This document shows, piece after piece, positions 15,322 through 48,864 of a stretch of 64,000 nt of DNA. The stretch's first letter is position 1; each line of letters opens with the position of its first letter. The stretch spans positions 930,001 through 994,000 of the forward strand of contig JAPNXP010000007.1 in assembly GCA_028753945.1 (NCBI GenBank), given 5' to 3'. Position numbers and translations under genes: made by a program. Under the pieces are notes generated by a model. The model worked only from the letters and a program-made list of their open reading frames with translations. It made no database searches and was not told the DNA's origin. The DNA is from Hexactinellida sp. DTS-2022 (Eukaryota; Porifera; Hexactinellida).

Positions 15322-15930
15322 TCTATCTATATTAAAAGCACAATTTTTGTTTTGTGTGTGAGTGTGTGTGTGTGTGTGAGTGTCAAATTGTGTGGAAGTG
15401 ATCCGAGACCAAAGGGCTCGTTTTTAATAATACGAGTCCTTCGGCCCCGGTCGCTTGGCGACCTTTGTAATAACTAATAAGAATTGTAAGAGCTGAATCA
15501 AATTAGTTCCTAAGTGACGTCATAATCCCAAAAATCGGTATGTGTCTCATTGTATGTTGTCTTATCATCTAAACGAGCCCTTCGGTCTCGGTCGCTTTGC
15601 GACAGATCGGTGCTACGCACCTGAAGTTAACGGCCGCTGTGCGGCCTTACTCCTCACATTTTCTACATAGGAAATGGTAGAAAGGGACGTTATGATTTTG
15701 AATTTTTCATTAATTTGTGTAAACAACAACAACAACAAATATTAATATGAGAAATTTAAAAACGCGAAATTCGTGTTCAGCATACTTGTTTACCTATCAT
15801 AACATTTGGAAGTTAGTTTCTATCTCATATATAAATGCGGTTTTTATTCCCCCATCACTTTAATACAATCCGGACAAACAAACAAACACACAAACAAACA
15901 ACAATCGAGATTTAATAATACGTATAGATG
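15322..15930. mobile_element. Helentron-like non-autonomous element
   Basis: The left end (ctatctatattaaaagcac plus a GT-rich run) and the right end (acaatcgagatttaataata preceded by a CA-rich run) are loosely inverted. The interior contains parts of the hairpin module (15405-15470 and 15573-15646) and the caacaacaacaaatatt phrase. Subterminal inverted repeats with microsatellite-like GT/CA stretches are typical of Helentron/DINE-like elements, but no helicase is present, so this is an inference. Confidence 0.5.
15573..15646 (+). repeat. multi-hairpin module
   Basis: Consecutive small stem-loops: cgag-ctcg with a cccttcggt loop, gtcgc-gcgac, ggtgc-gcacc and ggccgc-gcggcc, followed by a fifth (tctacataggaaatggtaga). 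Confidence 0.7.
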
Positions 15931-16146
15931 TGGACGAATCGAATAAAAACTGAAAGAGTTAAACCTAAATATGTGCCTTTACAACGTCATAATCCCGTTA
16001 TTTTGTTTAGAAAACCAATAGATCGATGTCAGCGTGTAAAATTACCCCTGCAGGCCTGCATGCAAATTTTCAGATTTCTAGAGCATATGGGATTTCCTAT
16101 TAATTCTGGACAAACAAACACACAACTTTTGTGCTTAAATACGTAG
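15928..16146. repeat. Helentron-end relative (reverse orientation)
   Basis: Shares gatcgatgtcagcgtg, aaaattacccctg and ggacaaacaaac phrases with 18823-18960, 19390-19505, 24003-24480 and 43380-43500. The open frame here (72 codons) is part of the repeat and is not considered a gene. Confidence 0.55.
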
Positions 16147-16477
16147 TAGTCTAGTAGATAATAAATAATAATTTGAATACCAATATGTATATATTTTGCA
16201 ATATACTATCCGAAATCCAAAGAAAACACAGTATACTACCTAAATACTTGTTAGAGACTTATTACTGTGCCGACTATTCTATAGTATATAGTGACCCAGT
16301 ATTGAAATTACTACTGCCTTGGTTAGTTATTATTTTTGTAATTCCAATGTAATAGAAAAATATTTATGATTTTTTCCCACTTTTACACGAAAAATATTTT
16401 GAAATCTGTTCGGACTAGCGTTCGGATTAGCGGGTGTACTTTAATTAATTATTTTAAATATCATACCTGTACCCATG

Positions 16478-17255
16478 GCTTACTATATATACGGCTGTGT
16501 ATGTTCCCGACTTGGCCTTCAAACAAGAAGGCCAGTTTTAAATTTAATTCAAAGCTAAACCATGCCTTCTATTGTAGTTTATTGGATTGTATATGGGGTA
16601 ATCAACCATTGTGAATCCATTGGAACCACTTTTGAGAATCTCAGATTTGGGGTTAAGCTATTTAGGCGCCATTTAATGATGACGGTAACAATTTTTGGTA
16701 AAATAAAATAAAATTCAAATATCAGAAATTTCAGTTACTTCCTACTTTCTAATAATTATATAATAGGAATACTAAAATAGGGATATATTTCATACCCCAA
16801 AGGCTACTAAATCACAAAATAGCGACATTCTAAAAAATTTTAAAATTATTTAAGCAACCACATGCTAAAATACAAGTATTATCCGGATTACAACTTACTA
16901 TTTTCGTCCATAAAACGTATTAATTGCTGGTTTATATATATTCATTCTCATTATATATTCGGAAAATGTATTCTAAGTATATTAGCAAATTATTTTCATT
17001 TTCTTGTAGTTCTTTAGACTCGAATTGTATATTTTTGTATATTAGTGGTGTCATCATTAAATGGCGCCTAAATAGCTTAACCACAAATCTGAGATTCTAA
17101 AAAGTGGTTCCAATGGATTCACAATGGTTAATTACCCCATATACAATCCAATAAACTACAATAGAAGGCATGGTTTAGCTTTGAATTAAATTTAAAACTG
17201 GCCTTCTTGTTTGAAGGCCAAGTCGGGAACATACACAGCCGTATATATAGTAAGC
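16478..17255. mobile_element. 778-bp foldback element
   Basis: 206-bp arms (16478-16683 and 17050-17255) pair with a constant coordinate sum of 33733, so there is no net length change. Ends are gcttactatatatacggctg and its complement. The arm sequence (atggggtaatcaaccattg, aggcgccatttaatg) is a diverged version of 5248-5466 in the giant palindrome, so both belong to one family. Short frames inside are repeat sequence. Confidence 0.8.
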
Positions 17256-17468
17256 TGTGGGACCAAAAATTTGGGTGGGGAAGGAGCACACTCCCATTCC
17301 ATCTGTGAGGGATTTTATATTTTGTTCTTGGAGCCATTGACAAATAAAATATTTAGTTTTAATAGGAGAGCAATTGAAAAGCGCTGCATTTGGGAATCAA
17401 ACGATCAATGTTGTTGTGTAAGCAAAAAAATAGTATTAAAATGTTATGTATTATCTTTTATATTATAA

Positions 17469-17525
17469 ATGGGCTCATACCCCGGTATAGAGGATTTGCC
17501 CACCACCCTACTTGAGGATGTTAAC
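17469..17525 (+). repeat. 57-nt conserved core, copy 6
   Basis: Differs from copies 1-4 at three sites: GGA to GGT and GAC to GAT (synonymous in the core frame) and ATC to ACC (Ile to Thr). It stops at TAA directly after GTTAACTTT. Confidence 0.75.
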
Positions 17526-17797
17526 TTTTAACATGAGACTTAGCAGATGTATCTTGTTCTGTAATTTAAAAGTAGTACATTTATCTCTGCTACATAATTT
17601 AATTAACTGGTTGGATTTAAATATACTAGAAACTTGATATCCTAAAATGAAATATACTAGAAATATGAGATTTTGATATTCAGTCAGTTTACAATAGCCA
17701 ATGGTGAACAGCCAGTATTTCATCGTAAAAGATAGATACACACTACTTGGGTTCATCCATTTGAAATGTGATGCTAAAGATTATAAATTGTAACAAT

Positions 17798-17870
17798 ACG
17801 AGCCCTTCGGTTTCGGTCGCTTTGCGACTGTTCGGCGCTTCACGCTTCAATTGACGGCCATTGCGCGGCC
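17798..17870 (+). repeat. multi-hairpin module
   Basis: The gtcgctttgcgac stem-loop is intact; the third and fourth stems are partly degraded. It lies inside dispersed repeat copy A. Confidence 0.65.
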
Positions 17871-17940
17871 TTACTACGCCTTGAAACTAAAAACCATTTA
17901 GAATTATACTTATTTGTGGTGATTAAATATATTCCTCATA

Positions 17941-18995
17941 AAGTTCCCTTAATAAGAATGTTACACAATTAATTTGTTTGGTAAATTCAAATTATCTCAT
18001 TAGTAGCTCTTTTTGGACACATTTTTGAACCTCTTTAATGTTAGAAAGGAACAATAAATGGTGCCCGAATATTCAATATATGCATTCGATAGAGAATTTA
18101 ATTTTACACCTTTTCACAGTGCACGAATTTTTAAATTGGGTTTCGTTAGTGCCACAATAGAGTTACAAATTTCCTTTGTTTACTAACACTTCAGTTCAAT
18201 TGAAAGTGTTAAATCTAATTCTATTGTTTCAACTTGTGATTATTATATTGATTCAACTTGTGAGATCGAGTAGGGCTTCTATTTCCATATTATCTATACA
18301 ATATTAATGAATGGCATTAAACTCAAGATGGTTTAAGATAGAAACAAACTTCCGATTTACCAATTGTTCCTTGTAGCTCGTGACCACTTGACAAATGTGT
18401 CATAGCACCCTGACGTGATGGTGACATAGCGAAAAAATCCAAAATTGCAGCTGTGCCGACAGCATTTTCCTTGGAGGCACTATTCAATTTACCAATCAGT
18501 AGCCACCAAAAGATAGTGCCTCTAAAACAGGGATTCTTAAACTGGGGGGCGCCCCCCCTAGGGGGGCGTAAAGGCATTGTAGGAGGGGCGTAATACCCTT
18601 AGAAAAAGCAAACTCATCAACCAAGGGGGGCATGGGGTGAAAAAGTTTAAGAACCCTGGCTCTAAAGGAATATGCGTCGGCACAGCTGCAATTTTAGATT
18701 TTTTTTACTCAATCAAATTGCAGCCTCAGAAAATATTTCTTTCATGTACAGTCTATTTATACTAATTGAATGAAGTGTAGCAAATCCATACTAACAAAAC
18801 ATCGAATTAATTGGCCAACATATTTTGTCACCTTTGGATGAAAATGCGAATATTTCTCTTCAAAAACCAATAGATCGTTGTCACAGTACAAAATTACCCC
18901 TGTATACAAATTTTCAGCTTTCTGGGACTCGTAGTCTTTCCAATTAATCCTGGACAAACAAACCCACACATCCACAACAATTGTGTTTTAAATAT
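17941..18995. other. intergenic with a nested MITE pair
   Basis: About 18434-18705 is an inverted repeat (caaaattgcagctgtgccga against its complement near 18675-18700) holding the hAT element 18528-18658. About 18823-18960 is a Helentron-end relative. Nothing else recognised. Confidence 0.5.
18528..18658. mobile_element. hAT MITE, 'cagggattcttaaactgggg' type
   Basis: The left end cagggattcttaaactgg is the complement of the right end (agtttaagaaccctg). Flanks cctctaaa and gctctaaa match at 7 of 8. G/C homopolymer runs inside are typical of this MITE type. Confidence 0.75.
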
Positions 18996-19085
18996 ACGAG
19001 CCCTTCGGTCTCGGTCGCTTCGCGACCTTGGTTCGTTCGTGGTAGACACTACGTAATGCAATTAATTAACGGCTGCTTTTCAGCC
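18996..19085 (+). repeat. multi-hairpin module, variant
   Basis: The second stem keeps gtcgc-gcgac with loop ttc. The last stem reads ggctg-cagcc in place of ggccg-cggcc, a paired change. Confidence 0.65.
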
Positions 19086-19738
19086 TTACCCACTGTGACT
19101 CCGTGAGGTGGAAAATAGAATAGAGAAAAAGATTTGTCTAGTTCAAATAAGAATTATATGAACACTTATGCATATCTGTATGCTATTAATAAATCACTAA
19201 TAGAATTAACTAAACTGAAATCATGCAGGTGGAGTCAGCATGTAATCACCAAACCTCAATATGTGCAGTGAATTCAAAGAAACATGCAATATAATCTATT
19301 TTAGAATGTCCAATTAATTTCCAAGTTATGTAATAAACACATAAATCGGTATACGTGTGTCTCATTTCATGTTGTCTGCCATCGAAAATTGTGGGCGAAT
19401 CAGATAAAAACTGAGACATTCCCAAATATGTGCCTTTATGACATCATAATCCCGTTATTTCGTTTAGAAACCCAATAGATCGTGTCAACGTGTAAAATTA
19501 CCCATGCATTCATTTCAGTCCTAGATTTTAATACCGTGAAATCCATAATCCAACCGAATCCCGGACCCTCTGACTATAAGTGTAAATTATATAACTCGCT
19601 GACCCATACACTTTACATCCATATTAAGAACTGTATTGCAGACATTCTGTATGCAGAGTAATATGATAGTTTACAATACTATTCTTAGTAGTATAGTAAA
19701 ATAAGTTTAACCCCATTTTAATGAATGAAATCTCTATA
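19086..19738. other. intergenic upstream of transporter-like gene 1
   Basis: Holds a Helentron-end relative (about 19390-19505). The last ~110 bases (tgcagagtaatatgatagtt) are shared with the same place before gene 2 (30331-30441), so the duplication includes at least this much of the 5' flank. Confidence 0.55.
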
Positions 19739-21697
19739 ATGGCTGAAGATGATTTGGATGAAACAAGGTCTTTGCTTAATTCAACAGATGATCTATTGAT
19801 TAGGACTCGCAGAGAAGATTCTGTGCCATACAGTTGGAATACATTCAAGCCGTTTCTATTTTTCGGACAAAGAATTCCCAAGTTACATCGTCCAGGTTTG
19901 TATCTACATCTTTTTATTTTAGTTCTTCAGTACTTTTTCTTCATTAATACTCAGGTAATTATTGACCTAGTTTTACAAAGGAGTTTCTACTGGGTTTTTA
20001 AAAATGATTTCGCATCTCCTCTCCTTTCTTCTGTATCCTACCTGATTATTCCATTTATCGTATATTTCTGTGATCGCCAGATGATAAGCAGGTATAGATT
20101 AGTACTGAGTTCTCTCGTAATGGCATCTGTAGCAAGTTGTATTCTTCTAATATTGCTCTTACTTCAACACTTTGAAAAATATAATGTTGATAACTTAACA
20201 ACTCATACTCCCAACAATACTAGTATAGGTTTGGTGCTGGGAATCTTCATTGGGGTAGAATATATCTATTGCGTATTGGGCTTTATCTTATTCTCGGTTA
20301 GTTATGCACTGTCTTATCCATTTTCAATTGCATTCGGGTTAGATTTACTTCATGGAACACATTCAGAGACACTGCTTCTTTATTTTCCTTTGTTTTACAT
20401 ATCAAAAAATGTCGGAGCACTTTTTGCTTATCTTGTATACGCTCGGATTGAGGAGGAAGATACCTATATTCACTGTGCAGTTACTACTGTTATTATCCTC
20501 CTTGCATTATTTTTAACTATGTGTGGAAGGTGCCTTGGGTACTTTAAGGACTCTGCGATTGTTGCAAACAATTTTTCATTCAAAAAGGGAATAAATTTAT
20601 TATTTGCTGCTTTAAAATTTAAAATTTTCAAGCACAATAAGACTGAATTCAAAAAATTAATGCTATTTACTGCTAGAAAAAGACAATATGAAGATCCTCA
20701 AAGTTTAGTTGATAGAACCTTAGCGATGGTTAAAATAAATCTCACTTTATTCCTACTAATTCCATTGCTTGGCGCATATCAAGTACTCTATCAACTTTTC
20801 CCTGAACAAGCGTATTTATTAAATTTCTTACTAAAACCAATAACTCATTCTACTAACGTAGGTTATTACTGTAAGAGTGATGCTTACTTCCTCTCCTATT
20901 GGTTTATTAACCCTTTGACGATTGTTTTGTTTGTTCCACTCGTTGAATATATATTCAATGATATCGTATTCGACTTTTGGAGGTGCGATATGCCATGTTG
21001 GGTCAGGTGTATTTCTTTTGGAATAAAATTTATCAGAACTAATTGCGTTCACCCTTTTCGCAAGAGACTGCACAAATACCTTGCATCAGTGGATCCCATT
21101 TTGAAAAGGATTTTCTGGGGCTTACCATTTGGATTACTTAGCGCGCTGTGCGCTCTTTTTGTTGAGATAATTCGAATCAAATTTCCAGTTGAACTTAAGT
21201 GTGGTGTGGGCGAATATTATTTCTCATCACTAGTTCCCCTCATATCTCAAACCCCTCAGTACTTCTACTCTGGTCTGTTAGAAGCGATCTCCACTATTGG
21301 ATTACTACAGTACGTGTATTATTTGTGTAGTTTTCATTTCAAAAACTCATTAAAGGGGTTCTTCTTCTCGTTATTCTACTTCTATTATGGAGTTGCGGGA
21401 GTTATTTCGAATGCCTTCAACTTTTCATTGGATCAAATTTGTGCCAATAATTGCAATCTTAATTTCACTTCAGATACTGACATATCCTACAGTTCTAATG
21501 GTGCTAATTACTGGTGCTTGGTTATAAATACGGATTGTCCGACTTCTGTTATGCCCAACGCTTGGGCTATTTGGGTGATTGTAATCCTGATTTATTTGGT
21601 GATGATACCGATGTTCTACATCTTCTCACACTGGAATCATTGGAGTTCAATTCGTAGAGAAAGGAATGAACGTGAAATGTGTAGTGAAACTTTGTAG
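19739..21697 (+). CDS. transporter-like membrane protein 1 (divergent POT/SLC15-like)
   Basis: A 652-residue intronless frame. I start at the second in-frame ATG because it aligns with the only possible start of the paralogue at 30442; the upstream ATG at 19721 is out of frame there. The polar N terminus (1-50) is followed by about 12 hydrophobic spans. Residues 199-233 (FGLDLLHGTHSE then LYFPLFYISKNVGAL) resemble the conserved block of proton-dependent oligopeptide transporters, and 508-560 (GLLEAIST, then LKGFFFSLFYF) resemble their late spans. The first-span ExxER proton-coupling motif of that family is absent: the aligned stretch is VLQYFFFIN. Substrate and direction cannot be inferred. 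Candidate AATAAA at 22191. The family call is by eye and moderate; another major-facilitator-like family is possible. Confidence 0.75.
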   Translation: MAEDDLDETRSLLNSTDDLLIRTRREDSVPYSWNTFKPFLFFGQRIPKLHRPGLYLHLFILVLQYFFFINTQVIIDLVLQRSFYWVFKNDFASPLLSSVSYLIIPFIVYFCDRQMISRYRLVLSSLVMASVASCILLILLLLQHFEKYNVDNLTTHTPNNTSIGLVLGIFIGVEYIYCVLGFILFSVSYALSYPFSIAFGLDLLHGTHSETLLLYFPLFYISKNVGALFAYLVYARIEEEDTYIHCAVTTVIILLALFLTMCGRCLGYFKDSAIVANNFSFKKGINLLFAALKFKIFKHNKTEFKKLMLFTARKRQYEDPQSLVDRTLAMVKINLTLFLLIPLLGAYQVLYQLFPEQAYLLNFLLKPITHSTNVGYYCKSDAYFLSYWFINPLTIVLFVPLVEYIFNDIVFDFWRCDMPCWVRCISFGIKFIRTNCVHPFRKRLHKYLASVDPILKRIFWGLPFGLLSALCALFVEIIRIKFPVELKCGVGEYYFSSLVPLISQTPQYFYSGLLEAISTIGLLQYVYYLCSFHFKNSLKGFFFSLFYFYYGVAGVISNAFNFSLDQICANNCNLNFTSDTDISYSSNGANYWCLVINTDCPTSVMPNAWAIWVIVILIYLVMIPMFYIFSHWNHWSSIRRERNEREMCSETL

Positions 21698-22345
21698 GAT
21701 TGTCGATAATATTTAAATTCTTAACTTTATTGAACTTGGATATTGCAAAATTGCAAATTATTATTGTTATACTTTAACAGGTTGTATTTGTTGTTATTTT
21801 ACCTTGATTTAAATGTATGCTTGTTTTGTGATAATTACAGATATTAATATGTATGAGTCTCTAAAATATTGTTCTCCAGATTGATGGTGAACCTAATTAT
21901 ATAACATTACTATTATACACTTTACGTACAGCAAAATTCCCGAAATTAACACCTATTTCCATATGTCACACTTTCTGTCTCAAATCGGTTAATCTCCCGT
22001 CCCTTCCCAATACATATATGAAGCATTTAGGTTAGGGACGGATCAAGATTTTAAAAGAGGAACAGGAGCGAGTGTGGAGAGCCAAGTTATGGAGGTCTGG
22101 CGTCGAAAGCCCCCTTAAAAACCTATTAAATATACTCTATCTACACTGATTCTACAGAATAGTTATCCAATTGTATGATTTAATTCAATTAATAAACTCA
22201 ATAATATTATTTCACAATTGACACTCAGTTTATTGGCTTGCAACAATATACGTTCGCTGATTAGCATATATTTATTTGAGGGCCCTAATTACTTTCCTGG
22301 TATTCCATTGAGATACGTAGATCGGAAGATTGGGTGCTTTATACG
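21698..22345. other. 3' flank of transporter-like gene 1
   Basis: Matches 32392-33240 at roughly 90% by eye and shares the polyadenylation-like AATAAA (22191-22196; 33075-33080). It holds a degraded hAT-like piece (gaggaacaggagcgagtgtg) in both copies. The match ends at gggtgctttatac. Confidence 0.65.
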
Positions 22346-23004
22346 AGGCGCATGCATTAGTCAGAATTTGTAAGTTGTCATTAGTTAGAATATGAACACT
22401 GGCGTTAGTCAGAATGGCTTTTTCGGTAAGTTGGTGTTAGTCAGAATGAGTTTTCACTAAGTTGGTGTTAGTCAGAATGGGTTTTCACTAAGTTGGTGTT
22501 AGTCAGAATGAGTTTTCACTAAGTTGGTGTTAGTCAGAATGGGTTTTCACTAAGTTGGTGTTAGTCAGAATGAGTTTTCAGTAAGTTTGCGTTAGTTAGA
22601 ATGCGTTTTCAGTAAGTTGGCGTTAGTCAGAATGGATTTAGGATGTTGAAGTTAGTCAAATCATTAATAAATTTCACTCTTATATGTTCGAAATTTATTG
22701 GGATTTCAAAGAAATTCGTTCTACAAGCCGACAATTTGTAACGATCATATATATTCAAACAAAACCTTTGACTTACATTCATGATCATTGTGGGGAATCT
22801 GTTAAATTTGACTAACGTCAACATCCTAAAATCCATTCTGACTAACGCCGACTTATTGAAAACCCATTCTGACTAACGCCAACTTACTGAAAACCCATTC
22901 TGACTAACGCCAACTTAGTGAAAACTCATTCTGACTAACGCCAACTTAACGAAAAAGCAATTCTAACTAATGAGAACTTACAAATTCTGACTAATGCAGC
23001 GCCC
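22346..23004. mobile_element. foldback element with 31-bp tandem repeats in its arms
   Basis: Ends gcattagtcagaatttgtaag and its complement. The left arm carries about seven copies of a 31-bp unit (gttggtgttagtcagaatga...); unit starts at 22430, 22461, 22492, 22523, 22554, 22585 and 22616 are exactly 31 apart. The right arm (about 22833-22955) carries about four inverted copies. The loop is 22660-22810. No gene. Confidence 0.85.
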
Positions 23005-24753
23005 CCATTCAGAATACTCTGATTATATCACATTACTAAAATATGTTAGATTGGGGGATAGACTCAATTGACAAATTTCACATTGTATCTATACATTGTA
23101 TCTTTAAACAGGACTTGCTAATTCTCTAGAGAATTCAATACAGCATATCATACAATGTTTCAAAGTATGTACGACCATATTAAATAGTACTTTGATAGTT
23201 TGTGCATGCTATTAGTGAGTATATTGTTTTACAAGCGAAAAATCATCCATATATCTACCTTTTATATGTTTATTCATACAAAGTTGTTAGTTTATGTTAT
23301 TTGTAAAAGTAAATTAAGACATTTTGGATCATCGTGGGATTTTAGAATGCTCCGTAAATTTTTTGTTTCTCCGTAAATTTTATGCTCAATCTCCAGGAAT
23401 TTATCTGAACTCACTTGGCAGCACTGCTTAAGTTATTAATTTAAAAAATTAAGTGTGATTTTTGCTAATCAATTGCAACATAAAATAAATGTCTTTTAAT
23501 CAAATATTATCTGGCTACCCCCCCAGATTTTCAGAAAAATTGGAAAGTTCGACGCCTATGCTAATAGGGGAATCAAATTAACAGTATTACACGCTTGGGA
23601 TCTGAAAAGCGGTTGCTAATAAAGCAATATTGCTAATAGGGGAGTTGCTAATAAAGCAACTCAACTGTAATTAATAAGGATCTTCTGCGGTGCGGTCAGG
23701 ACCGGTTCCTGTCCTGTCCTGTCCGTAATTTTGTTAATTTATGCAACACTAGATGCTAGCTATTAACATACTACATTTGTTTTTGCCTTGTCAAGACATA
23801 CCTCCAAAAAGGAGCAATGTGAAAAAAATAATTGAGAGTATGATAACGATTCTCGCCTTATTTACAATTTTCAAATATGAATATTTTTGTTGTTGTTTAG
23901 CATACTGAGCATACTAATCAATCTTAATCATTTTTATTGAGATTCTTTATGAAATTTTATAGCGTTCTAATTCATTCGATATGTTCTCAAAATACGATTT
24001 TGTACTGCGACAACGATCTATTGGTTTTCTAAGCGAAATTCGGGATCATGACGTCACAGTTGCGAAAAACAGATATTTTTTACTTACTTTCCCAATTTTG
24101 CTCCGATCTGTAGAAAATTCAAAGCATTAGACGTACACTAAATTTCTACACCTGATAGCAGTTCACGAATTCCCATTTTTATTCGGATTGTAATACAGTT
24201 AATTAATTAGTCCCTACACTAATCAACCATAAATAGTGTATTGCACTAACACAGGTATAGCAAAGTGCAAGTGTGTGTGCGTGCGTGTGTGTGTTTGTCC
24301 AGAATTAATAGGAAAGACTACGAGTCCTAGAAAGCTGAAAATTGGCATGCAGGGGTAATTTTGTACTGCGACAACGATCTATTGGTTTTTTAAACGAAAT
24401 AACGGGATTATGACGTTGTAAAGGCACATATTTTGGAATAACTCTTTCAGTTTTTATCCGATTCACCCACAATTTTAGATGGCAAGACAACATGAAATGA
24501 GACACACGTATACCGATTTATGGGAATGTGACGTCACGTTCGAATCTGGAAGCAATTCTTTAAAATATCTCGGGTGGGCTTGCGGTTACATCCTCCAGAA
24601 AGTTATTATATCGTTTAGTCTATATGTTGATCTATGCAACCACGGGTGGATTAAATATTACAATTTACAACACATTTTAATCGTCATGAAATTCCTTGAA
24701 ATCTCAAGAAAAATATCCATAAATTACGATAACTTTTGAAGATATTTAAATCT
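23005..24753. other. intergenic, repeat remnants
   Basis: Holds a 'gctaatag' miniature-element relative (23555-23670) and Helentron-end relatives (23998-24060 and 24280-24480, with gtactgcgacaacgatctat twice). No supported gene. Confidence 0.5.
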
Positions 24754-24903: not shown

Positions 24904-24912
24904 TTTAAATCT

Positions 24913-27508: not shown

Positions 27509-27580
27509 ACGAGCCCTTCGGTTTCGGTCGCTTTGCGACTGTCGGCGCTTCACGCTTCAATTGACGGCAGTTGCGCGGCC
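27509..27580 (+). repeat. multi-hairpin module
   Basis: Same state as the 17798 copy, including its degraded third stem, as expected for two copies of one long repeat. Confidence 0.65.
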
Positions 27581-27640
27581 TTACTACGCCTTGAAACTAT
27601 AAACCATTTAGAATTATACATATTTGTGGTGATTAATATA

Positions 27641-30120: not shown

Positions 30121-30441
30121 ATTGATAGCTCGATGACCAAATTAGAGTAAACCGCTTTTGGGAAGATATGTCAGAACAAGTTTAGAAAAGAAATATATAG
30201 TTGATTGTATGCATACGTATAATGGAATATTTGATATTGTAAATATCGGCGAGATTTGCTTATATACCGGCGAATACTTAAATATTGGCGAGATTTAAAA
30301 GCTTAAAAAAAGCTTACTTCATAACATTATCCATATTAAGAATTATATTACAGATATTATGTATATGCAGAGTAATATGATAGTTCATAATAGTGTATAT
30401 TATGTATTTAACTCATTTTAATTTAATGGGAAATCTCTATA
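30121..30441. other. 5' flank of transporter-like gene 2
   Basis: Contains ggcgagattt repeats (30248-30300). The last ~110 bp match the upstream flank of gene 1. Confidence 0.5.
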
Positions 30442-32391
30442 ATGGAAGAAAATTATTTGGATGAAAGGTCGTTGCTTAATTCAACAGATAATCTACTGAT
30501 TAGTGCGCACAGAGAAGATCCTGTCCCGTACGGTCGGAATACATTCAAACCTTTTCTATTTTTCGGACAAAGAATTCCCAACTTATATCGTCCAGGTCTG
30601 TATCTCCATCTTTTTATTGTAGTTCTTCAGTACTTTTTCTTCGTTAATACTCAGGTAATTGTTGATCTAGTTTTAGAAATAAATCTTAAAAATATATTCG
30701 AAAATGATTTCGCATCTCCTCTCCTTTCTTCTGTATCCTACCTGATTATTCCATTTATCGTATATTTCTGTGAAAGCCAGATGATAAGCAGGTATAGATT
30801 AGTACTAAGTATTCTCCTAATGGCATCTGTAGCAAGTTGTATTCTTCTAATATTGCTCTTATTTGTACACTTTGAGAAAGATAATTTGGCTGACTTAAGT
30901 TTTGGTAACAACGCTAGTGTCAATTTGGTGCTGTACATAGTATATGGGATAAAATACTTAAGTTGTGGGGTGATTTTTATACTGTTTTCAATTAGTTATG
31001 CACTTTCCAAACCCTTTTCTATTTCCTTCGGTTTAGATTTGCTTCAAGGAACACATTATGAGACACTACTGTTATATTTTCCATTATTTTACATTTCATT
31101 GAATATTGGATCATCTTTTTCATATCTTGTGTACGTAAAGTTTGTAAAAGACTATCCCTATCTACACTGTACAGTTACTACTGTTATTATTCTCCTTGCG
31201 TTATTATTAACTATGTTTGGAAAGTTTCGTGGATATTTTCAAGAATATGCGATTGTTGCCAACAATTTTTCATTCAAAAAGGGACTGAAACTTTTATTCG
31301 CTGCTTTTAGATTGAAATTTTTTGCGCGTAATAAGGCTGATTTTAGAAAATTGATGCTATTCACAGCTAGAAAGAGAGAATATGAAGATCCTCACTGTTT
31401 AGTAGATAGAACCCTAGCCATGGCTAAAATTAACATCATATTATTAACTTTAATTCCATTGCTTGGAGCAAATCAAATTCTTAATCAACTTTTCCCAGAA
31501 CAAGCGTATTTATTAAATTTCTTACCAAAATCGGTGACTCACCCTGATAATGCAAAGTATTACTGTGATAATAAAAACTACTTCTTATCTTATTGGTTCG
31601 TGAATACTCTAACTATTGTTTTGTTTGTTCCTTTCATCGAATATATATTCAATGATATCGTATTCGACTTTTGGAGGTGCGATATGCCATGTTGGGTCAG
31701 GTGTATTTCTTTTGGAATCAAGTTTATCAGAACTAATTGCGTTCACCCTTTTCGCAAGAGACTGCACAAATACCTTGCATCAGCGGATCCCATCTTGAAA
31801 AGGATTTTCTGGGGCTTACCATTTGGATTACTTAGCGCGCTGTGTGCTCTTTTTGTTGAGATAATTCGAATCAAATTTCCAGTTGAACTTAAGTGTGGTG
31901 TGGGCGAATATTATTTCTCATCACTAGTTCCCCTCATATCTCAAATCCCTCAGTACTTCTACTCTGGTCTGTTAGAAGCGATCTCCACTATTGGATTACT
32001 ACAGTACGTGTATTATTTGTGTAGTTTTCATTTCAAAAACTCATTAAAAGGGTTCTTCTTCTCGTTATTCTACTTCTATTATGGAGTTGCGGGAGTTATT
32101 TCGAATGTTTTCAACTTTTCATTGGATCAAATTTGTGCCAATAATTGCAATCATAATTTCACTTCAGATACTGACATATCCTACAGCTCTAATGGTGCTA
32201 ATTACTGGTGCTTGGTTATAAATACGGATTGTCCGAATACTGTTATGCCCAACGCCTGGGCTATTTGGGTGATTGTTATCCTGATTTATTTGGTGATGAT
32301 ACCGATGTTCTACATCTTCTCACACTGGAATCATTGGAGTTCAATTCGTAGAGAAAGGAATGAACGTGAAATGTGTAGTGAAACTTTGTAG
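30442..32391 (+). CDS. transporter-like membrane protein 2 (paralogue of protein 1)
   Basis: A 649-residue intronless frame with the same layout as protein 1: polar N terminus, about 12 spans, the POT-like block FGLDLLQGTHYE...FPLFYISLNIGSS near residue 200. It likewise lacks ExxER in the first span (VLQYFFFVN). Up to about EYIFNDIVFDFW the two proteins differ at roughly a quarter of positions; from there to the last residue they are almost identical, and the DNA differs at only a handful of sites. It lies 10.7 kb downstream on the same strand, a tandem duplicate. Candidate AATAAA at 33075. The function is as uncertain as for protein 1. Confidence 0.75.
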   Translation: MEENYLDERSLLNSTDNLLISAHREDPVPYGRNTFKPFLFFGQRIPNLYRPGLYLHLFIVVLQYFFFVNTQVIVDLVLEINLKNIFENDFASPLLSSVSYLIIPFIVYFCESQMISRYRLVLSILLMASVASCILLILLLFVHFEKDNLADLSFGNNASVNLVLYIVYGIKYLSCGVIFILFSISYALSKPFSISFGLDLLQGTHYETLLLYFPLFYISLNIGSSFSYLVYVKFVKDYPYLHCTVTTVIILLALLLTMFGKFRGYFQEYAIVANNFSFKKGLKLLFAAFRLKFFARNKADFRKLMLFTARKREYEDPHCLVDRTLAMAKINIILLTLIPLLGANQILNQLFPEQAYLLNFLPKSVTHPDNAKYYCDNKNYFLSYWFVNTLTIVLFVPFIEYIFNDIVFDFWRCDMPCWVRCISFGIKFIRTNCVHPFRKRLHKYLASADPILKRIFWGLPFGLLSALCALFVEIIRIKFPVELKCGVGEYYFSSLVPLISQIPQYFYSGLLEAISTIGLLQYVYYLCSFHFKNSLKGFFFSLFYFYYGVAGVISNVFNFSLDQICANNCNHNFTSDTDISYSSNGANYWCLVINTDCPNTVMPNAWAIWVIVILIYLVMIPMFYIFSHWNHWSSIRRERNEREMCSETL

Positions 32392-39675: not shown

Positions 39676-39715
39676 CACTATACGACTATAGCATTAGTAA
39701 AAGTAAGGAGATTGG

Positions 39716-41035: not shown

Positions 41036-41466
41036 TACTATTGTTATCAAACCATATGTTTGTATTTTTTTGAAATGTATAGTTAAATTTTAATCTAAGT
41101 CTTAAAAGTGCTGTTTGACGACGTACATGTTGACCATTCAGTTTAATGACCGTTCTTGTGACTTATTTAGCTAATGTCACTGAATCTCTACTTCAATCTC
41201 CACGTCAAATCTCTACTTAATAATTAGTATTAATTTAATAATTACCATAAATGGGTATGTATATTTGATTACGTCATTGTGGTTAAATCTGATGAGAAAT
41301 CATTCTCAAAAGTATTTTAGATGTTTCCAGCGTATTTGATAACCTAAGTTTAGTTTTTCCATGACAATAGGTAATTCATTTCACGAGCAATTGGAAAGTA
41401 AACACTGGCCTGGAAATAAAATGGCAAATACTTGACTTATCTAGCCGTATAATATAGTAGGCCATG

Positions 41467-41663
41467 TACTATCTATCCAATTCCGAAAGAAATTTTGATT
41501 CGGATATTTTTATACCTTTTTGACGTCACTAAAGGTCAAAATCGCCGTCATTCTGTACAAAAAAATCCTCAAGATTTCTGGGTAGCGACTTTTGTATAAC
41601 TCGCATATCTCAAAAAGTATAAGTCGGAGAGAAAAGACTATGCCTTAAAAATGATCCTTTATA
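41467..41663. other. intergenic
   Basis: No gene; nothing recognised. Confidence 0.4.
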
Positions 41664-42372
41664 GTTGTACTGTTGTATGACCATGGGCGCCGAAACTCTC
41701 AAACGCTAGGGGGGGTGTGACGTAATATTCAAATGTTAAAGTTTAAAAAAACAATGCCTATGGGATAAAATCAATGTTGGATGGGCATAATTGTATAGAT
41801 ATATACATCATCAACTGAAATTTACACGAACTCATTATGAAATCAATAATTTCCCATTTTTCTTCCCTGACTTCTCCTCGGCCAGGGGGGGTGACACCCT
41901 CCCTGACCCCCCCACTTTCGGCGCCTATGTGTATGACGGTTTACTTACCATGACGGTTTGCTTACCTCTACTACTATAACAATAATTAACTATGGATACT
42001 TTCAAATCCATGACGGTTTACTTACCATCTTTGCAATGGCTTCACACTATACTTTCTATTACACATCCACACTTATGAGGATTCACATCTCAAATTCTAA
42101 TTGGAAAATGTCATTATGGCCCAAAATATATACTGCTAATATGGAAATTATTAGATGCTATGTTGATGCAATGTCAAATTTTGAAATTAGAATTAGAGTT
42201 TGAGATGTGAATCCTCATAAGTGTGGATGTGTAATAGGAAGTATCAAATGTGAAGCCATTGCAAAGACGGTAAGTAAACCTTCATGGATTGAAAGTATCC
42301 ATGGTTAATTATTGTTATAGTAATAGAGGTAAGTAAACTGTCATGGTAAGTAAACCGTCAAACAACAGTACT
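41664..42372. mobile_element. foldback element, 'gtatgacggtttacttacc'
   Basis: Left arm (tgttgtatgac, then cggtttacttaccatgacgg, on to about 42100) pairs with 42185-42372. The phrase ggtttacttaccat recurs within each arm. The left arm is interrupted by the hAT element 41682-41929. The 81-codon frame inside is repeat sequence. Confidence 0.8.
41682..41929. mobile_element. 248-bp hAT element inside the foldback arm
   Basis: catgggcgccgaaac / tttcggcgcctatg ends and a perfect 8-bp duplication tgtatgac (41674-41681, 41930-41937). Same family as 26552-27215. Confidence 0.85.
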
Positions 42373-42557
42373 ACAAAATTTGCCGTATAGTCCAGCGGCA
42401 TAGCCATAAAATTTCAACAGATTGATCATTTTTTTGATAAAAGCACCAAAATTTGTACACATGTACTTTGATGTTGTGCGAACATTTTTGGATATTGAGG
42501 CAATTGAAAGAGTTTCTATATCGGCCATGACAGCTCGCCAAAGTTAACACGTCCGAT

Positions 42558-42723
42558 CAGGGCCGGATTTAACGTTAGGCTAAGTAGGCTATAGCCTTCG
42601 GGACACTACAGGACCAATGGGCCACTACAGGACCACTACCGACCAATGTCGATAATGTTCGGGCCACTTGTGTGGTTCAGCCTTCAGGCCACTCAAGGGT
42701 AAATCCTGCCCTGCGTCCGATAG
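42558..42723. mobile_element. 166-bp hAT MITE
   Basis: cagggccggatttaac / (complement) caggatttaccc-type ends. Perfect 8-bp duplication cgtccgat (42550-42557, 42724-42731). Confidence 0.85.
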
Positions 42724-42731
42724 TGTTCGCC

Positions 42732-43071
42732 TGACTTGTTTCCCATAAAAACTTGTTCAAATTAAGTTATATCGTCTTTTTATTGTTGAATTCGGTTTCC
42801 AAGTAAAATTCCCGATAATTTGATATATCACATGACCATATTTGGAAGAATTGCTCCATAGCAACGCTGGAATGTACCAGGAATGTGTCAAAAATTCCAT
42901 TCTCCAATTGTGTCCTTATCCAATCGAGTGAGCCCTCTTTCGACTCCACTCAACTACGTGAGTATAATTATATACATACCGACCCTGTAAAACGTGATTT
43001 GATAAAATTATTCGATATTTATGGTAAATCACGGTGAATCAAGAATAATTTTGAAACTTAGCGGGTTTGTT
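42732..43071. other. intergenic
   Basis: No gene supported; ends where the NLR segment duplication begins. Confidence 0.4.
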
Positions 43072-43212
43072 GAGGTATTTTAGAGGTTTGGAGTTTCCGT
43101 TCGCTTGGGACGGGCCTCTGCGAAATTTTCATCTCTCAGGGCCTTCGGGTAAGAGTACTAAGACATGACCTGGTTGCTAAGGAGTATACTGGGATGCACA
43201 ACGATGAGGAAT
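43072..43212 (-). pseudogene. broken copy of the small exon at 60485-60817
   Basis: Matches 60704-60860 closely (cttagcgggtttgttgagg; cagggccttcgggtaag). An 8-bp insertion just after the ATG introduces a stop, and small deletions shift the frame. It marks the 3' edge of the duplicated NLR segment. Confidence 0.6.
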
Positions 43213-43220
43213 AATCTACG

Positions 43221-43345
43221 CAGTGCCCGATTAACCATGAGGCACAGGCCTCAGGCCCCCAGCCTCTAGGGGCTCTATCGGGAGGTATAAGGGGCCCCCA
43301 AATTGAGCTGTGCCTCAGGCCCCCATCTAGCTTAATCGGGCCCTG
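43221..43345. mobile_element. 125-bp hAT MITE
   Basis: cagtgcccgattaac / gcttaatcgggccctg ends, perfect 8-bp duplication aatctacg (43213-43220, 43346-43353). Inserted in the 3' flank of NLR 1 and absent from the NLR 2 copy. Confidence 0.85.
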
Positions 43346-43353
43346 AATCTACG

Positions 43354-43919
43354 TATCTCTATATATAAAGCGCAATTGTTGTCTGTTTGTTTGTGTGTTT
43401 GTCCAGAATTGATTGAAAAGACTACGAGTCCCAGAAAGCTGAAAATTTGTATCTTAGGATAATTTTTGTACTGCGACAATGATCTATTGGTTTTTGAAGA
43501 GAAATATTCACATTTAAAGGTGACAAAATTTGTTAGCCAATTAAATTCGAGGGTTAGTTAGTATGAATTAGCTATACTTCATTTTAATTAGTAAAATATG
43601 TGCATAATAGGAAGATTTTCTGAGGCTGCATTCTGATAGATTGAATATAAATTCATTTAACTAATCAATCATTTGTCTATTTTATTGCATGTTTTTCTTT
43701 TAGTATTATTTGGGTCGAGCTATCGTGCAATTGAAATTTATTGAGCTACAAATATTTGAATTTCCCAAACAAATTACATTGTATAGCATTCTTATTAGGG
43801 GGACTTTATGAGGAATGTATAATTATAAATGATTAGTTTCAAGTTGTAGTAAGGCCGCGCAGCGGCCGTCAATTGAGGCACCCGAACCGTCGCAAAGCGA
43901 CCGAGACCGAAGGGCTCGT
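43354..43919. mobile_element. Helentron-like element in the NLR 1 flank
   Basis: Left tctctatatataaagcgcaa then a GT-rich run and the family phrases gactacgagtcccagaaag and gtactgcgacaatgatctat. At its far end is a reverse-oriented hairpin module (43853-43919). It is absent at the matching place beside NLR 2, so it arrived after that duplication. Confidence 0.55.
43853..43919 (-). repeat. multi-hairpin module
   Basis: Read on the minus strand, it has the first, second and last stems intact (last: ggccgc-gcggcc); the third is degraded (gggtgcct). Confidence 0.65.
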
Positions 43920-44149
43920 AATTCAAATATACAGCACTGTTTGTTGCTTGGTCACGTAACACAAATTCCAAGAAATTAGAGATCCCTAAATAAGTCAAGC
44001 ATTTTGGGCATTTTGTAATACAAGTGATGTTGTCACACATAGGTGCCCTTGGAAGAGTTATGTAATGTTAGAAGACAGGGATAACTAATTAATTATGATA
44101 TTTAATTTGGCAGTCTCTACCAAAATAAATAGGATTATTCATAATAGAC

Positions 44150-44155
44150 TTTATT
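44150..44155 (-). promoter_or_regulatory. candidate polyadenylation signal of NLR 1
   Basis: AATAAA on the minus strand about 110 bp past the stop. Confidence 0.5.
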
Positions 44156-44263
44156 CTAATTTACAACTGTTTCATTGTTATTTCTAAATGTCTATTATTA
44201 CATAGTATTAAATATTAGTACAAAGTCCCAATAAAGTTAGAGGTTAGAGGTTAAAGTTAGAGG

Positions 44264-47200
44264 TTAATCAGTAAAATTAATAGAGTACTCCTCTGCAGCT
44301 GATCTGAGTGCTTTAATGGGAACTGGATCTGGTTCGGAGAGATCGTTTATCTTCAGTGTCTTCAGCTGTCTGAGAGTAGGGATTAGGTTAGTGACTGCTT
44401 CACACGACTGAGAGGTCTGTCCACAGAGATATACACGTAGGCACCTGATTGATGGATGTTTGGCTAATCCCAGACACACAGCTAACATTCCAGCATCAGA
44501 TAGTGTAACCTTGTAAATGTGTAGATAAAGCAATGACTGCAGACATCTCAGTGTGTGTGTCCATTGAGAAGTATCCTCTGGTGAAATGGAAGTAAAGCGT
44601 ATCTCTAGCTTATCTATATTAACACAGCATTGTAGAGCAGATAGTAGTTCTGTCCAACTCTCAAATCCTATATCTTCTAAGTACCATAAGAAGACTGCCC
44701 TTAGTGTGTCATGATTGCTATTCAGTACTCGGACTAGATTGGCTGATAGCGATTCCTCAGATCCAGACGTCATATCTAGATGTGTGAGTCCAGTTAAATG
44801 TGCCATGTGAGGTAGCAGGGAGTAGTAAGGATATTCAATTTCTGTTAACTGAGTGAGTTTAAGCATTAGTTCTTGTATTAGCTGCCCATTGTCTCTAGAT
44901 ATAGGGTAATCTGTGTATAGTCCCTTTAACTGAGTGGCTTGGGTTATTGCAGGTAGGATAATGCTAAAGTGTTCTGCTTTATTAATAGACAGGTACTGGA
45001 AGCATTCGGAAGATACAACACAGGTGGCTAGTTGGTGGAGGAATTCTTTGGAGCATTGACTCCAGTGCAGTCTCACGCTATTAATATGTTGACTGATAGG
45101 AGAAGAAAACAATTCAATATCTGTCAAATCCTCTATATCACACCATAATAGCTCTATGCTAATGCGAGTGGTATGACTGAGTTCAGCGTTGTTAATGAGG
45201 TTAGTGTAGGCTAGGACTTTAGAACTCATAGGCTCTTTCTGTGAATTTTCCTCTTTAAATATAACAGCTAACTGAGATAGTGGACAGGTTTGTATTTGCT
45301 CCATCAGAGATTCAAACTGCTCTATATTTACATGATTGGTGTGTATGTAGAGGATGTTAATACGCTGGACTAGTTGTAGCGACTGTGTGAAGCAAGTCCA
45401 CTCGTTAGGGGATACGGGTAATACTTCTCTAGTGAGATACAGCGAGATAGATGTAGGAAGTAATCTCTTGATGGCTAGGTGGATATAGCGGGAATTAGTC
45501 TCGAAAATGATGGGAACTAATTGGAAGTATTTCTTAGTGAAGTCATACCAACCTGTGTATCGCAATAATGAGTAACCTGTGTCAAACCCTAATTGGTGGT
45601 ACATGGGTAGATCCTCAGTTGTGTCAGGAAACAACTTTCTACACAGAATGGTTAGGAGAGCAGCTGACCGATTAGCTAGGAGACCACAGAGGAAACGCAC
45701 AACCATTCGAAAGACCGAGAAGTGCTCGTTACTGTCGGCTATGTAACGTGCACTCATGCACTGCTTTATCCAAGAGGTTGATGTTAGGAAGATGGCTGAT
45801 GTGAATTCCTGCATTGTTAGATGGGCAAATGCCCACACCTTTGTAACAGTGCCTACTGAGTCTTTCGTGTAGAATTCGTGTGCCAGGCCTAAGCAATGGC
45901 ATTCTACTTCTGCATTGTCAACTGTCATTTGGACTCTTTCGGTGGAGGTCAGTTCGCGGCTGCCCACACCTATCATTGCGATTCGCCCTATGGCGTAGAG
46001 GCAATTCGGGACGCTTTCGTTGAATAATTCAATCTTTTTCACTTTTGCCTGTTCCTTTAGGGCCATCCTGTCTAATTGTCTCCTGATCAGGTAGCAGGTT
46101 AGTTCTCTGTAGAGGTGTGTCAAGGTTTGTATCTTTACGGTGTCATCTTTCAGTAGGGCCGCGAACAAGGAGGCATTCACTGGGATTAGAGACAGCTGGT
46201 TCATCTCATCGTAACGGTGCAGGAGGCGCTTGCATTCTTTCAACTTATCCAGCTTTGTAATTTGCTTTTGGAAATACTTGTCTCTGTTTTCAGGTGAAAA
46301 TCCCAAGACTTGGTAGTATCGGTCTACTTTGATTCCTTGATGTAAGCTAATGTCTGTCCAGGCCCCTGGTCTCGTGGTGGCTATGATGGTGGACTGCCGC
46401 AGTGCTTCTCTTGTTAGCAGCGAGTATAGCAGAGACTTCTCGAACGGAATCTTCTTGGTGAACTCGTCGAGTCCATCTATGATGAGCAACAGCCCCTCCC
46501 CATCCGATTTGGCTATGTGCTTGGCAAGGTCTTTGGTCCAATCAGATGTCGCTGGCAATCCCAAGCACAGCCATTCTTGGACAAATTCAGACGTGACTGA
46601 TTTGCCCTCTTCTACGCGGCTGGTTTCCATAGAATGCCAATTGAAGTTGCGACAAGGGATAGCAATGGAATAGGAAATTTGTTTGAGTTCAGCCTCCGCG
46701 AATCTTAACGCTATCCTCTTAGAAAGGAATGTTTTCCCACATCCGGGGTTGCCAATTAGGCACCAAATCTCCGGTTTTTCTGCGGTATATGTTTTCAGTT
46801 CATTTTCAAAGTCCACCGGTTTTATTTCGATTTCCTTGTTAGCGATCTTCCTGAGATAGGCAATCTCATTAAACGTTGTTTCATCTTCAAGTCTCACGGG
46901 ACGAGGTTCCTCTTTAAGAATGGTCAGTTCGACGTACACACTCGTTAAGCTCACTTTATCATCTTCTCCCAACATTTGAGTCACCATTGTGTACTCTAGG
47001 TTAAGGAACTGTCTCAGTTTATGTTCCCACTGTTTAATTTCTACACTTTGCTGCTTTAGTGCCCTTTTCATTTTCCCGATAAACTCATCTTCTGACATTC
47101 CAATGAACAGTAATTTATATTCTCTGATTTTGATAGCTACATTCGAACACTTTATTTTTGTAAGCACTTTTTCGAAATCATTCAGTTCTTTATTGATTAA

Positions 47201-47635
47201 TTGACTGTCTAGGCAATCCCTCAATATGATTTCAAAATCGAATTTTCTTTGCAAACTACCTTTGATGCCCATGGATATGCTTTGCCACTTTTTTTGCGAT
47301 ATTTCGTTTCTCAACAGTTGCAACAAGGTTTTCATTGATAAGGCTTCTTCGAATATATCGGATCCCTGTGAAGGCTTTGACACACATAGTCTTGGAACTT
47401 TAATTGCAATTTCTAATAAGTCGGGACGATTCAAACTGGTCAATGACTGGTAAAATGAGTTGGGGTTGAAACTTTCCCAATTCAAAATGGCAAAAAGGAA
47501 TGTTGTTCCATCACAGTCTTCATCGCATATTCCCGCGGGTACATTCAGTAGTAATCTCAACTTGGAAACGTCCTCAGTCGTTAGTTCACTCGATAACTCG
47601 TCGATGTATCCAATTTCAGAGATTGTTTGATCCAT
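44264..47635 (-). CDS. NLR: death-effector-like, NACHT and leucine-rich-repeat protein 1
   Basis: A 1,123-residue frame. Residues about 5-80 look like a death-effector domain (IDELSSELTTEDVSKL, and SLNRPDLLEIAI with the RxDLL signature); 100-175 may be a second death-fold. The NACHT ATPase follows: Walker A GNPGCGKT 295-302, Walker B LLLIIDGLDE 382-391, sensor-like TIIATTRPG 416-424, then a winged-helix/helical region (GFSPENRDKYF from 445). From about 780 to the end are leucine-rich repeats (LTQLTEIEY, MAHLTGLTHLDM, LRCLQSLLYLHIY, LRQLKTLKIN). By family, NLRs oligomerise on sensing a ligand through the repeats and signal by the death-fold, here plausibly to caspase-like partners. A good acceptor (tttccccttag) 11 bp before the ATG suggests a 5' non-coding exon. 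NLR 2 is its tandem duplicate. Confidence 0.88.
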   Translation of the reverse strand: MDQTISEIGYIDELSSELTTEDVSKLRLLLNVPAGICDEDCDGTTFLFAILNWESFNPNSFYQSLTSLNRPDLLEIAIKVPRLCVSKPSQGSDIFEEALSMKTLLQLLRNEISQKKWQSISMGIKGSLQRKFDFEIILRDCLDSQLINKELNDFEKVLTKIKCSNVAIKIREYKLLFIGMSEDEFIGKMKRALKQQSVEIKQWEHKLRQFLNLEYTMVTQMLGEDDKVSLTSVYVELTILKEEPRPVRLEDETTFNEIAYLRKIANKEIEIKPVDFENELKTYTAEKPEIWCLIGNPGCGKTFLSKRIALRFAEAELKQISYSIAIPCRNFNWHSMETSRVEEGKSVTSEFVQEWLCLGLPATSDWTKDLAKHIAKSDGEGLLLIIDGLDEFTKKIPFEKSLLYSLLTREALRQSTIIATTRPGAWTDISLHQGIKVDRYYQVLGFSPENRDKYFQKQITKLDKLKECKRLLHRYDEMNQLSLIPVNASLFAALLKDDTVKIQTLTHLYRELTCYLIRRQLDRMALKEQAKVKKIELFNESVPNCLYAIGRIAMIGVGSRELTSTERVQMTVDNAEVECHCLGLAHEFYTKDSVGTVTKVWAFAHLTMQEFTSAIFLTSTSWIKQCMSARYIADSNEHFSVFRMVVRFLCGLLANRSAALLTILCRKLFPDTTEDLPMYHQLGFDTGYSLLRYTGWYDFTKKYFQLVPIIFETNSRYIHLAIKRLLPTSISLYLTREVLPVSPNEWTCFTQSLQLVQRINILYIHTNHVNIEQFESLMEQIQTCPLSQLAVIFKEENSQKEPMSSKVLAYTNLINNAELSHTTRISIELLWCDIEDLTDIELFSSPISQHINSVRLHWSQCSKEFLHQLATCVVSSECFQYLSINKAEHFSIILPAITQATQLKGLYTDYPISRDNGQLIQELMLKLTQLTEIEYPYYSLLPHMAHLTGLTHLDMTSGSEESLSANLVRVLNSNHDTLRAVFLWYLEDIGFESWTELLSALQCCVNIDKLEIRFTSISPEDTSQWTHTLRCLQSLLYLHIYKVTLSDAGMLAVCLGLAKHPSIRCLRVYLCGQTSQSCEAVTNLIPTLRQLKTLKINDLSEPDPVPIKALRSAAEEYSINFTD

Positions 47636-47890
47636 TCCGTTAGATCCTAAGGGGAAATGTAATATTAATACATTATTATAATGTTCAGCCTACAGCAACA
47701 CAACATTAAATAAAATTCTGTCAGCGATATAAAATTGGCAAATTGGAGAGACGAAATTAGATTTTGTTCAGTTTTCTATATCGTACTTTAAATCAGTGGT
47801 GCTCCCGCAAATTTATATAGAATCGGACCTGGCCGACCCTGGCCTTGAGTGCTGATTTTGTGATTTATAGAACTTAGAGTATAGACAAAT
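47636..47890. promoter_or_regulatory. 5' flank of NLR 1
   Basis: Contains the probable splice acceptor just upstream of the ATG. No promoter motif can be named. Confidence 0.35.
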
Positions 47891-48277
47891 CTATATTATT
47901 AAAACTCGATTGTTGTGTATGCGTGTAGAACAAGAAATAGAAACCGCAATTAACATTGAGACAGAAAACTAACTTTCAAATGTTATAATAGGTAAACAAG
48001 TATGCTGATCACGAATTTCGCAATTACAAATTTATAATATGAATATTTATTGTTGTTTGCAAAAATTGGTAAACAAATGAATGGAAATTCAAAATGAACT
48101 TATATGGGTATTATAGGGAAACAAGTTTGTTGAACACGAATTTCGCGTTTATAAATCCCTAATATGAATATTTGTTGTTGTTTACACAAAATAGATAAAT
48201 TTGAAAATTCAAAATCAACCTAGAAGTTAGCTTTCAACCCAAGAAAATTCGAAGCAATTCGGTAATTTACGTACTCG

Positions 48278-48352
48278 TTTAAATATAACGAGCCTTTCGG
48301 ACTCGGTCGCTTTGCGACTGATCGGTGCTATCCACCTCAAGTTAACGACCGC
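48278..48352 (+). repeat. multi-hairpin module
   Basis: Same order of stems as 15573; followed by the fifth hairpin ctgccatggaaaatggtag. Confidence 0.65.
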
Positions 48353-48790
48353 TCTGCGGCCTTACTCCTCACCATTTCTGCCATGGAAAATGGTAGAAAG
48401 GGACGTTATATACATCCCTTTATAAGATTTCCATAGTTTTACCCGGTTTTATATTATAAATTTATATACCGTATGCGAAATTCGTTTTCAGCATACTTGT
48501 TTACCTATAATACCCGTTGAAAGCAAACTTCTAGGTTGATTTTAAATATTCATTAATTTGTTTACATTTTTTGTTAACAACAACAATAAATATTCATATC
48601 CGAAATTTATAATTGCGAAATTCGTGTTCAGCATACATGTTTACCCATAATACCCGTTGAAAGCAAACTTTTAGGTTGATTTTGGATATTCATTAATTTG
48701 TTTACATTTTTTTGTAAACAACAACAATAAATATTCATATCCGAAATTTTTGAATGCAAAATTCGTTTTCAGCATACTTGTTTACCTATA

Positions 48791-48864
48791 ACGAGCCCTT
48801 CGGTCTCGGTCGCTTTGCGACAGATCGGTGCTACGCACCTCAAGTTAACGGCCGCTGTGCGGCC
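48791..48864 (+). repeat. multi-hairpin module
   Basis: Nearly identical to 15573-15646, with all four stems complete. Confidence 0.7.

Follow-up and report, generated by a model that had tools for sequence, protein, structure and literature searches.

Tandem hairpins form the 3' end of an abundant Helitron family in a glass sponge genome

A module of consecutive small hairpins recurs in a 64,000-nucleotide stretch of a hexactinellid sponge genome (the window; C16:930001-994000, GC content 35.8%, from a genome of 112.4 Mb in 18 contigs), raising the question of what such a row of hairpins is. A preliminary description had offered three candidates, a replication terminus, a recombinase-binding array or an RNA scaffold. 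The hairpin module itself is real and above chance level: its 22-base head, CGAGYCCTTCGGNCYCGGTCGC, occurs at 2,791 places in the genome (1,404 + 1,387) at up to one mismatch, compared with none for the reversed head. An nhmmer search with one copy as query recovered all seven places named in the window (15566+, 17794+, 18993+, 27505+, 43919-43845 minus, 48287+ and 48790+). What was first observed is nevertheless only partly confirmed, since all seven copies exist but the complete order of four stems is found in just two of them (15574 and 48792). Hairpin 1 (cgag-ctcg) and hairpin 2 (gtcgc-gcgac) are discernible in all seven, with TTCG in place of CTCG at 17799 and 27510. The third stem (ggtgc-gcacc) has a shorter form, GGTG CTATC CACC, at 48289, is replaced by ggcgcttcacgct at 17799 and 27510, has been lost by deletion at 43918 and is absent at 18997. 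The fourth is intact at 15574, 43918 and 48792, altered in one pair (gaccgc) at 48289, damaged at 17799 and 27510, and ggctg-cagcc at 18997, where the change on both sides noted earlier is found as described (GGCTG-CAGCC at 19071-19085). The hairpin 2 loop, said to vary among ttt, ttc and ttg, is TTT in six copies and TTC at 18997, TTG occurring in an eighth, partial copy (15433).

Similarity among copies breaks off just ahead of CGAGCCC, and of the first 30 places listed on contig C1, 29 have an A directly before this motif. Read on the opposite strand, referred to below as the Helitron strand, the module is a Helitron 3' end: A is followed by TCTATATTATTAAATCTCG at the 5' end of the element, and the hairpins lead to GGGCTCG followed by T, with insertion at A^T. 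Of 86 distinct termini, 83 have T directly after CTCG, and A directly precedes the 5' end in 32 of 41 cases; among the 25 rows listed, five of the seven exceptions are junctions with another copy. Insertion at A^T can be seen in a 140-bp repeat, five of whose six units read CCTATAA then TAC(C/T)CG, the sixth being broken by the 3' end of the 48792 copy exactly at CCTATAA^TACCC. Copies of family A (families were sorted by hairpin 3, see below) extend about 0.3-1.5 kb from the module, and their body ends in a CAAACA/CACA microsatellite leading to ACAACAATCGAGATTTAATAATATAGA and then T; the copy at 48792 runs through 140-bp tandem repeats before reaching the microsatellite. The features in the window are as follows.

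48792..49734, minus strand: family A non-autonomous Helitron, 943 bp, with 5' end TCTACATTATTAAATCTCG at 49734, 3' end GGGCTCG at 48792 and target A^T
48792..48808, minus strand: hairpin 1, terminal, CGAG..CTCG, extending to the 3' terminus
48809..48821, minus strand: hairpin 2, GTCGC AAA GCGAC on the Helitron strand, the best kept in alignment A1 (98.3% of cells paired)
48827..48839, minus strand: hairpin 3, family A form GGTGC GTA GCACC
48850..48864, minus strand: hairpin 4, GGCCGC ACA GCGGCC
48289..49734, minus strand: second family A 3' end, hairpins at 48289-48361, 5' end at 49734 common with the 48792 copy
48911..49587, no strand: tandem repeats inside the element, period 141, 4.8 units
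48473-48791: further tandem array, period 140
15574..15920, minus strand: short family A copy, hairpins at 15574-15590, 15591-15603, 15609-15621 and 15632-15646, 5' end motif (15898-15920) lacking its final TAGA
15402..15463: a head-to-head pair of incomplete heads, one on the minus strand (15403-15423) and one on the plus strand (15433-15463)
17799..17880, minus strand: family C 3' end, hairpins decayed
18997..19087, minus strand: family D 3' end without the ggtgc hairpin, hairpin 4 at 19071-19085
27510..27590, minus strand: family C 3' end, decayed, in a region common with the 17799 copy (90.5% over 359 bp)
43845..43918, plus strand (Helitron strand plus): family C-like 3' end, hairpin 3 deleted

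Other features of the window include a pair of similar transporter-like ORFs on the plus strand (19700-21697 and 30427-32391, the first matching PTR2); upstream of these lie the module copies at 17799 and 27510, which have flanks in common, so that the segment looks duplicated. An inverted repeat (16472-16683 and 17050-17261) has 212-nt arms that are 98% complementary and 366 nt apart. Two similar long ORFs occupy 44264-47689 and 61183-63999 on the minus strand, with a NACHT domain in the first, and TMEM175 and NHL matches were also noted. Retrotransposon-like fragments lie at 57337-60192 on the plus strand, with a reverse transcriptase in 58182-58601 and no Pfam match in 59278-60192.

The Helitron Rep domain (PF14214) has 151 matches in the genome, compared with about 2,800 module 3' ends. 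Among the five matches listed on C1 below 6.1 Mb, the module lies 7-10 kb 3' of Rep in three (2906783, 3612731 and 5917222), and two (4411489 and 5540541) lack a module on that side up to a distance of 10 kb. A TCTATATT..AAATCTCGATTGTTG 5' end was present in all three module-linked Rep copies examined. These three have both ends, and the one that was read through, the 10,598-bp copy at C1:5909405-5920002, begins with A followed by TCTATATTATTAAATCTCGATTGTTGTG and contains one ORF of 1,829 codons; past it, about 4.1 kb in which that strand has no other 100-codon frame lead to GGCCGCACAGCGGCC, GGTGCGTAGCACC, GTCGCAAAGCGAC and CGAGACCGAAGGGCTCG followed by T. Both ends of C1:2899280-2909992 are as in this copy, and C1:3603371-3614743 couples a B-type 3' end with a 5' end that is A-type apart from one change (TCTATATTTTTAAATCTCGATTGTTG), indicating that two kinds of 3' end go with the same kind of 5' end. 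The hallmark of the Helitron superfamily is a single protein with a Rep domain (HUH, two Tyr) and a PIF1-like helicase, and both were found in the 1,829-aa ORF by Pfam (Helitron_like_N, 2.2e-63; PIF1, 6.1e-61; also Pif1_2B, and OTU at 4.8e-06). Residues 31-1095 align with residues 18-1080 of Helraiser (7lcc; E 4.5e-215), and the Rep signatures HAH and YLYKYVYK could be read by eye in the translation. We conclude that the module forms the 3'-terminal part of a very abundant Helitron family related to Helraiser; 10.6-11.4-kb elements carry Rep-Helicase, and copies lacking the gene are far more numerous. Another class of Rep ORF (about 1,700 aa, about 104 bits, many with long open frames) is found, for example, at C16:1021024, C2:901786 and C1:5540541, the last with no module within 10 kb among the places listed.

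The Rep gene, lying on the opposite strand between the same kind of ends in three copies, led us to reject a SINE or LINE head or a ribozyme, and together with the A^T insertion at the junction examined leaves next to no credence for a structured RNA (a SINE 5' region or ribozyme) read on the plus strand, even though such an RNA would suit a GC-rich folded head beside a sharp boundary and CAAACA repeats, of a type common in retroposon tails, at the other end. No tRNA and no Rfam family at gathering threshold was found in the window, and the RNA scaffold proposed earlier is without support. Its companion proposal, a replication terminus, came nearest of the three, in that the module does form a terminus, namely the 3' end of a rolling-circle transposon.

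Canonical Helitrons (Helitron1) have a 5' TC and a 3' CTRR, insert at A^T without duplication and carry one palindrome of 16-20 nt located 10-12 nt from the 3' end, Helitrons normally having one hairpin there. The sponge family has the 5' TC and the A^T insertion, the latter judged from flanking bases and from one left junction compared with its uninterrupted repeat. Its 3' end is CTCG instead of CTRR, and in place of the single palindrome there is one of 13 nt located 17 nt from the end, together with the terminal hairpin and one or two hairpins upstream. Helentrons and HINEs are marked by subterminal inverted repeats, TT insertion and an endonuclease domain in the autonomous protein. The microsatellite and the central repeats would fit this class, but it was rejected: in the two copies compared, exact inverted matches reached no more than 6 and 5 nt, lengths also seen in shuffles, no TT target was found, and Pfam gave no endonuclease domain for the single ORF scanned (E 0.01).

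In the available text of the Helraiser study (PMC4778049), Helraiser/Helibat1 of bats likewise combines a Rep-Helicase, a 5' TC, an A^T target and a 3' hairpin region, but ends in CTAG, preceded at 11 nt by a single 19-bp palindrome, whereas the sponge elements end in CTCG with several hairpins up to the terminus and encode a protein with a C-terminal OTU domain. As far as the available sections of PMC4067079 and PMC7492417 describe them, HINE, DINE-1 and Cg_HINE share with our elements a 3' palindrome, tandem repeats in the centre and a microsatellite close to the 5' end, and differ in having TT rather than A^T as target. Helitron2 of Fusarium is similar in its non-CTRR ends and terminal hairpins but has asymmetric terminal inverted repeats, other target sites and at most one hairpin per end, according to the available portion of PMC5148889. 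The same sponge genome also contains Helitron-like 3' ends of the CTAG type, at 87 places with up to 3 mismatches (for example, L008 minus 890, L018 plus 539 and L039 minus 2470). Like the module family, these have a palindrome with a variable loop and a T after the end; unlike it, they have one hairpin (CCGCCC nnn GGGCGG), then CTTTTCGG and CTAG before the T. No Helitron with several 3' hairpins was found in the open-licence literature, which the full-text search covers in part. What is unusual is the use of CTCG instead of CTRR and the hairpins, several in a row, up to the last base; the transposon itself is of a known kind.

When 126 distinct copies were sorted by hairpin 3, 51 fell into family A, 21 into B, 22 into C, 25 into D and 7 into other forms, a sample that is not random because most C and D copies were fetched deliberately; 30 loci picked by the head alone comprised 13 A, 12 B, 1 C, 1 D and 3 others. 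Two of these three others (L040 and L059) turn into different sequence soon past hairpin 2, and L064 is a rearranged B. With one A copy compared by blastn with one or two C, B and D copies, the matches covered nt 1-78, nt 1-35 plus 50-82, and nt 1-30 plus 54-77, respectively, with short hits only beyond the module. Families B and D have similar bodies (83% between L061 and L035 over 551 nt), and B differs from D by one more hairpin, a repeat of the hairpin 2 core. By sequence comparison, elements with three kinds of body (A, C and B/D) thus have hairpins 1, 2 and 4 in common, and hairpin 3 varies. The expectation that copies always have the atctcgattgttgtg end fails: it is present in 41 of 51 family A copies, and 12 of 21 family B copies have another 5' end. 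No 5' end was found within reach in the remaining nine B copies, nor within 1.6 kb in 7 of the 51 A copies, which had room for one. In 33 of 125 classified copies, the element was inserted in the AT-rich 5' tail of another copy, an A^T site. On the minus strand of L061, a perfect hairpin with a TTC loop, AAGACCGCTTCGCGGTCTT, lies at position 1997, about 500 bp from the family B head.

Folded as single-stranded DNA on the Helitron strand, five window copies gave z scores against shuffles of -3.8 (15574), -3.6 (48792), -2.6 (48289), -2.2 (43918) and -2.15 (18997), with -0.4 for an adjacent control segment; the other two (17799, +0.6; 27510, +0.9) fold no better than shuffles. Alignment A1 contains 48 Helitron-strand sequences (47 distinct), namely 25 sorted as A (although L098 and L106 among them resemble C), 22 C copies and the window copy at 43918; all B and D copies and six of the seven others were judged from lists instead. 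The four-hairpin structure pairs 95.9% of the cells of A1, compared with 24-48% in slid versions. The covariation score was 0.101, and shuffles gave 0.083 +/- 0.004 (0/500). In two of the five measures, however, A1 did not exceed the shuffles, namely in pairs with both sides changed (455/500) and in additional pair types (493/500), and the RNAalifold covariation term was only -0.57. The single pair in A1 with changes on both sides, a hairpin 3 pair that is T-A in family A and C-G in family C (22 cells), could also reflect two CpG changes. A strand asymmetry of wobble pairs was also sought, with the misaligned L063:1060-1157 omitted from this count and retained in the structure test; none was seen by event types (10 versus 9), though the Helitron strand was ahead by cells (46 versus 22).

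Two counts of exact variants are more informative about paired change. For the C-G to T-A change in hairpin 4, exact variants in the genome numbered 727 parental, 8 changed on the left only, 15 on the right only and 6 on both sides, where 0.4 doubles would be expected from independent changes (Fisher 5.6e-7). Four of the six doubles carry another common change and may be one subfamily, and the earlier caution that ggctg-cagcc might be two CpG decays was well placed, since it consists of two CpG transitions in a small group of copies. At a non-CpG position of family B hairpin 3, counted by eye from lists, copies with loop GAA had 55 A-T and 3 G-C pairs (all 58) and those with loop TTY had 83 and 17 (100 listed of 506), or 138 A-T and 20 G-C with no mixed pair in the 158 listed copies. 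The preliminary description had allowed that a large alignment might hold no covariation beyond CpG-to-TpG changes; this A-T/G-C pair goes beyond them, although covariation in excess of CpG decay may stem from few events. Since GAA is the reverse complement of TTC, and each loop orientation is found with each pair state, some change must have recurred or been exchanged. Template switching within a hairpin can yield both paired changes and flipped loops, according to the available part of PMC8794818, and so these patterns point to folding of the hairpins, or to their replication in hairpin form, but are not by themselves a sign of selection; template switching on formed hairpins fits them as well as selection does. 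The initial claim of selection on structure is supported in part, by the sharing of hairpins 1, 2 and 4 among elements with three kinds of body.

Taken together, we consider very likely an explanation in which the module is a Helitron 3' end, its hairpin row would serve as a stop signal and the paired stem changes of family B would come from template switching. By analogy with Helraiser, the row is probably the stop signal of rolling-circle transposition. The original interpretation as a whole is partly supported. The strand ending in GGGCTCG would become single-stranded during transposition and its hairpins would fold; the Rep-Helicase would take the folded hairpins as a signal to stop and then cut between CTCG and T. 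Hairpins 1 and 2 would be the core of the signal, hairpins 3 and 4 may make stopping more reliable, and the paired changes and flipped loops of the 11-bp stem in family B would arise when a polymerase switches template inside a folded hairpin. The available text on Helraiser (PMC4778049) describes its 3' hairpin as a terminator: without this single hairpin, corrected transposition fell to 8.8% and capture of flanking DNA rose from about 11.7% to at least 36%. Swapping the stem kept about 90% of activity in the same account and changing the loop abolished it, whereas here stems are conserved and loops variable, which counts against the analogy.

Two rivals concern what the hairpins do. It is rather doubtful that hairpins 3 and 4 are by-products of palindrome-perfecting template switching, with function limited to hairpins 1 and 2. 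The absence of mixed pairs among the 158 listed copies and the presence of both loop orientations match patterns in the portion of PMC8794818 available, and hairpin 3 differs among families, in B resembling a copy of the hairpin 2 core (L061 and L055 versus D); hairpin 4 and its flanks, however, are conserved across elements with different bodies. Unlikely, and somewhat more so, is that the hairpins are protein-binding dyads in double-stranded DNA, recognized by a transposase or host factor, instead of a folded single strand. The stems are indeed short, near-perfect dyads, and the terminal 30 nt or so are almost invariant (partly because copies were found by similarity there), but the loop inversion and strict non-CpG pairing in family B are marks of a folded or templated hairpin.

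Beyond the stop signal itself, we tentatively raise, as a possibility that is a little less doubtful than either rival, a multi-stage terminator in which the hairpins act jointly and the row is renewed by template switching, loop orientation being a fossil of hairpins formed in vivo. As far as found in the literature, the requirements of Helitron 3' ends have been tested on the reconstructed Helraiser. This one genome offers a ready test system: a natural family of thousands of copies whose hairpin arrays are interchangeable, partner genes that contain long ORFs, and CTAG ends that have a single hairpin. The flipped loops are natural evidence that such hairpins form and get copied.
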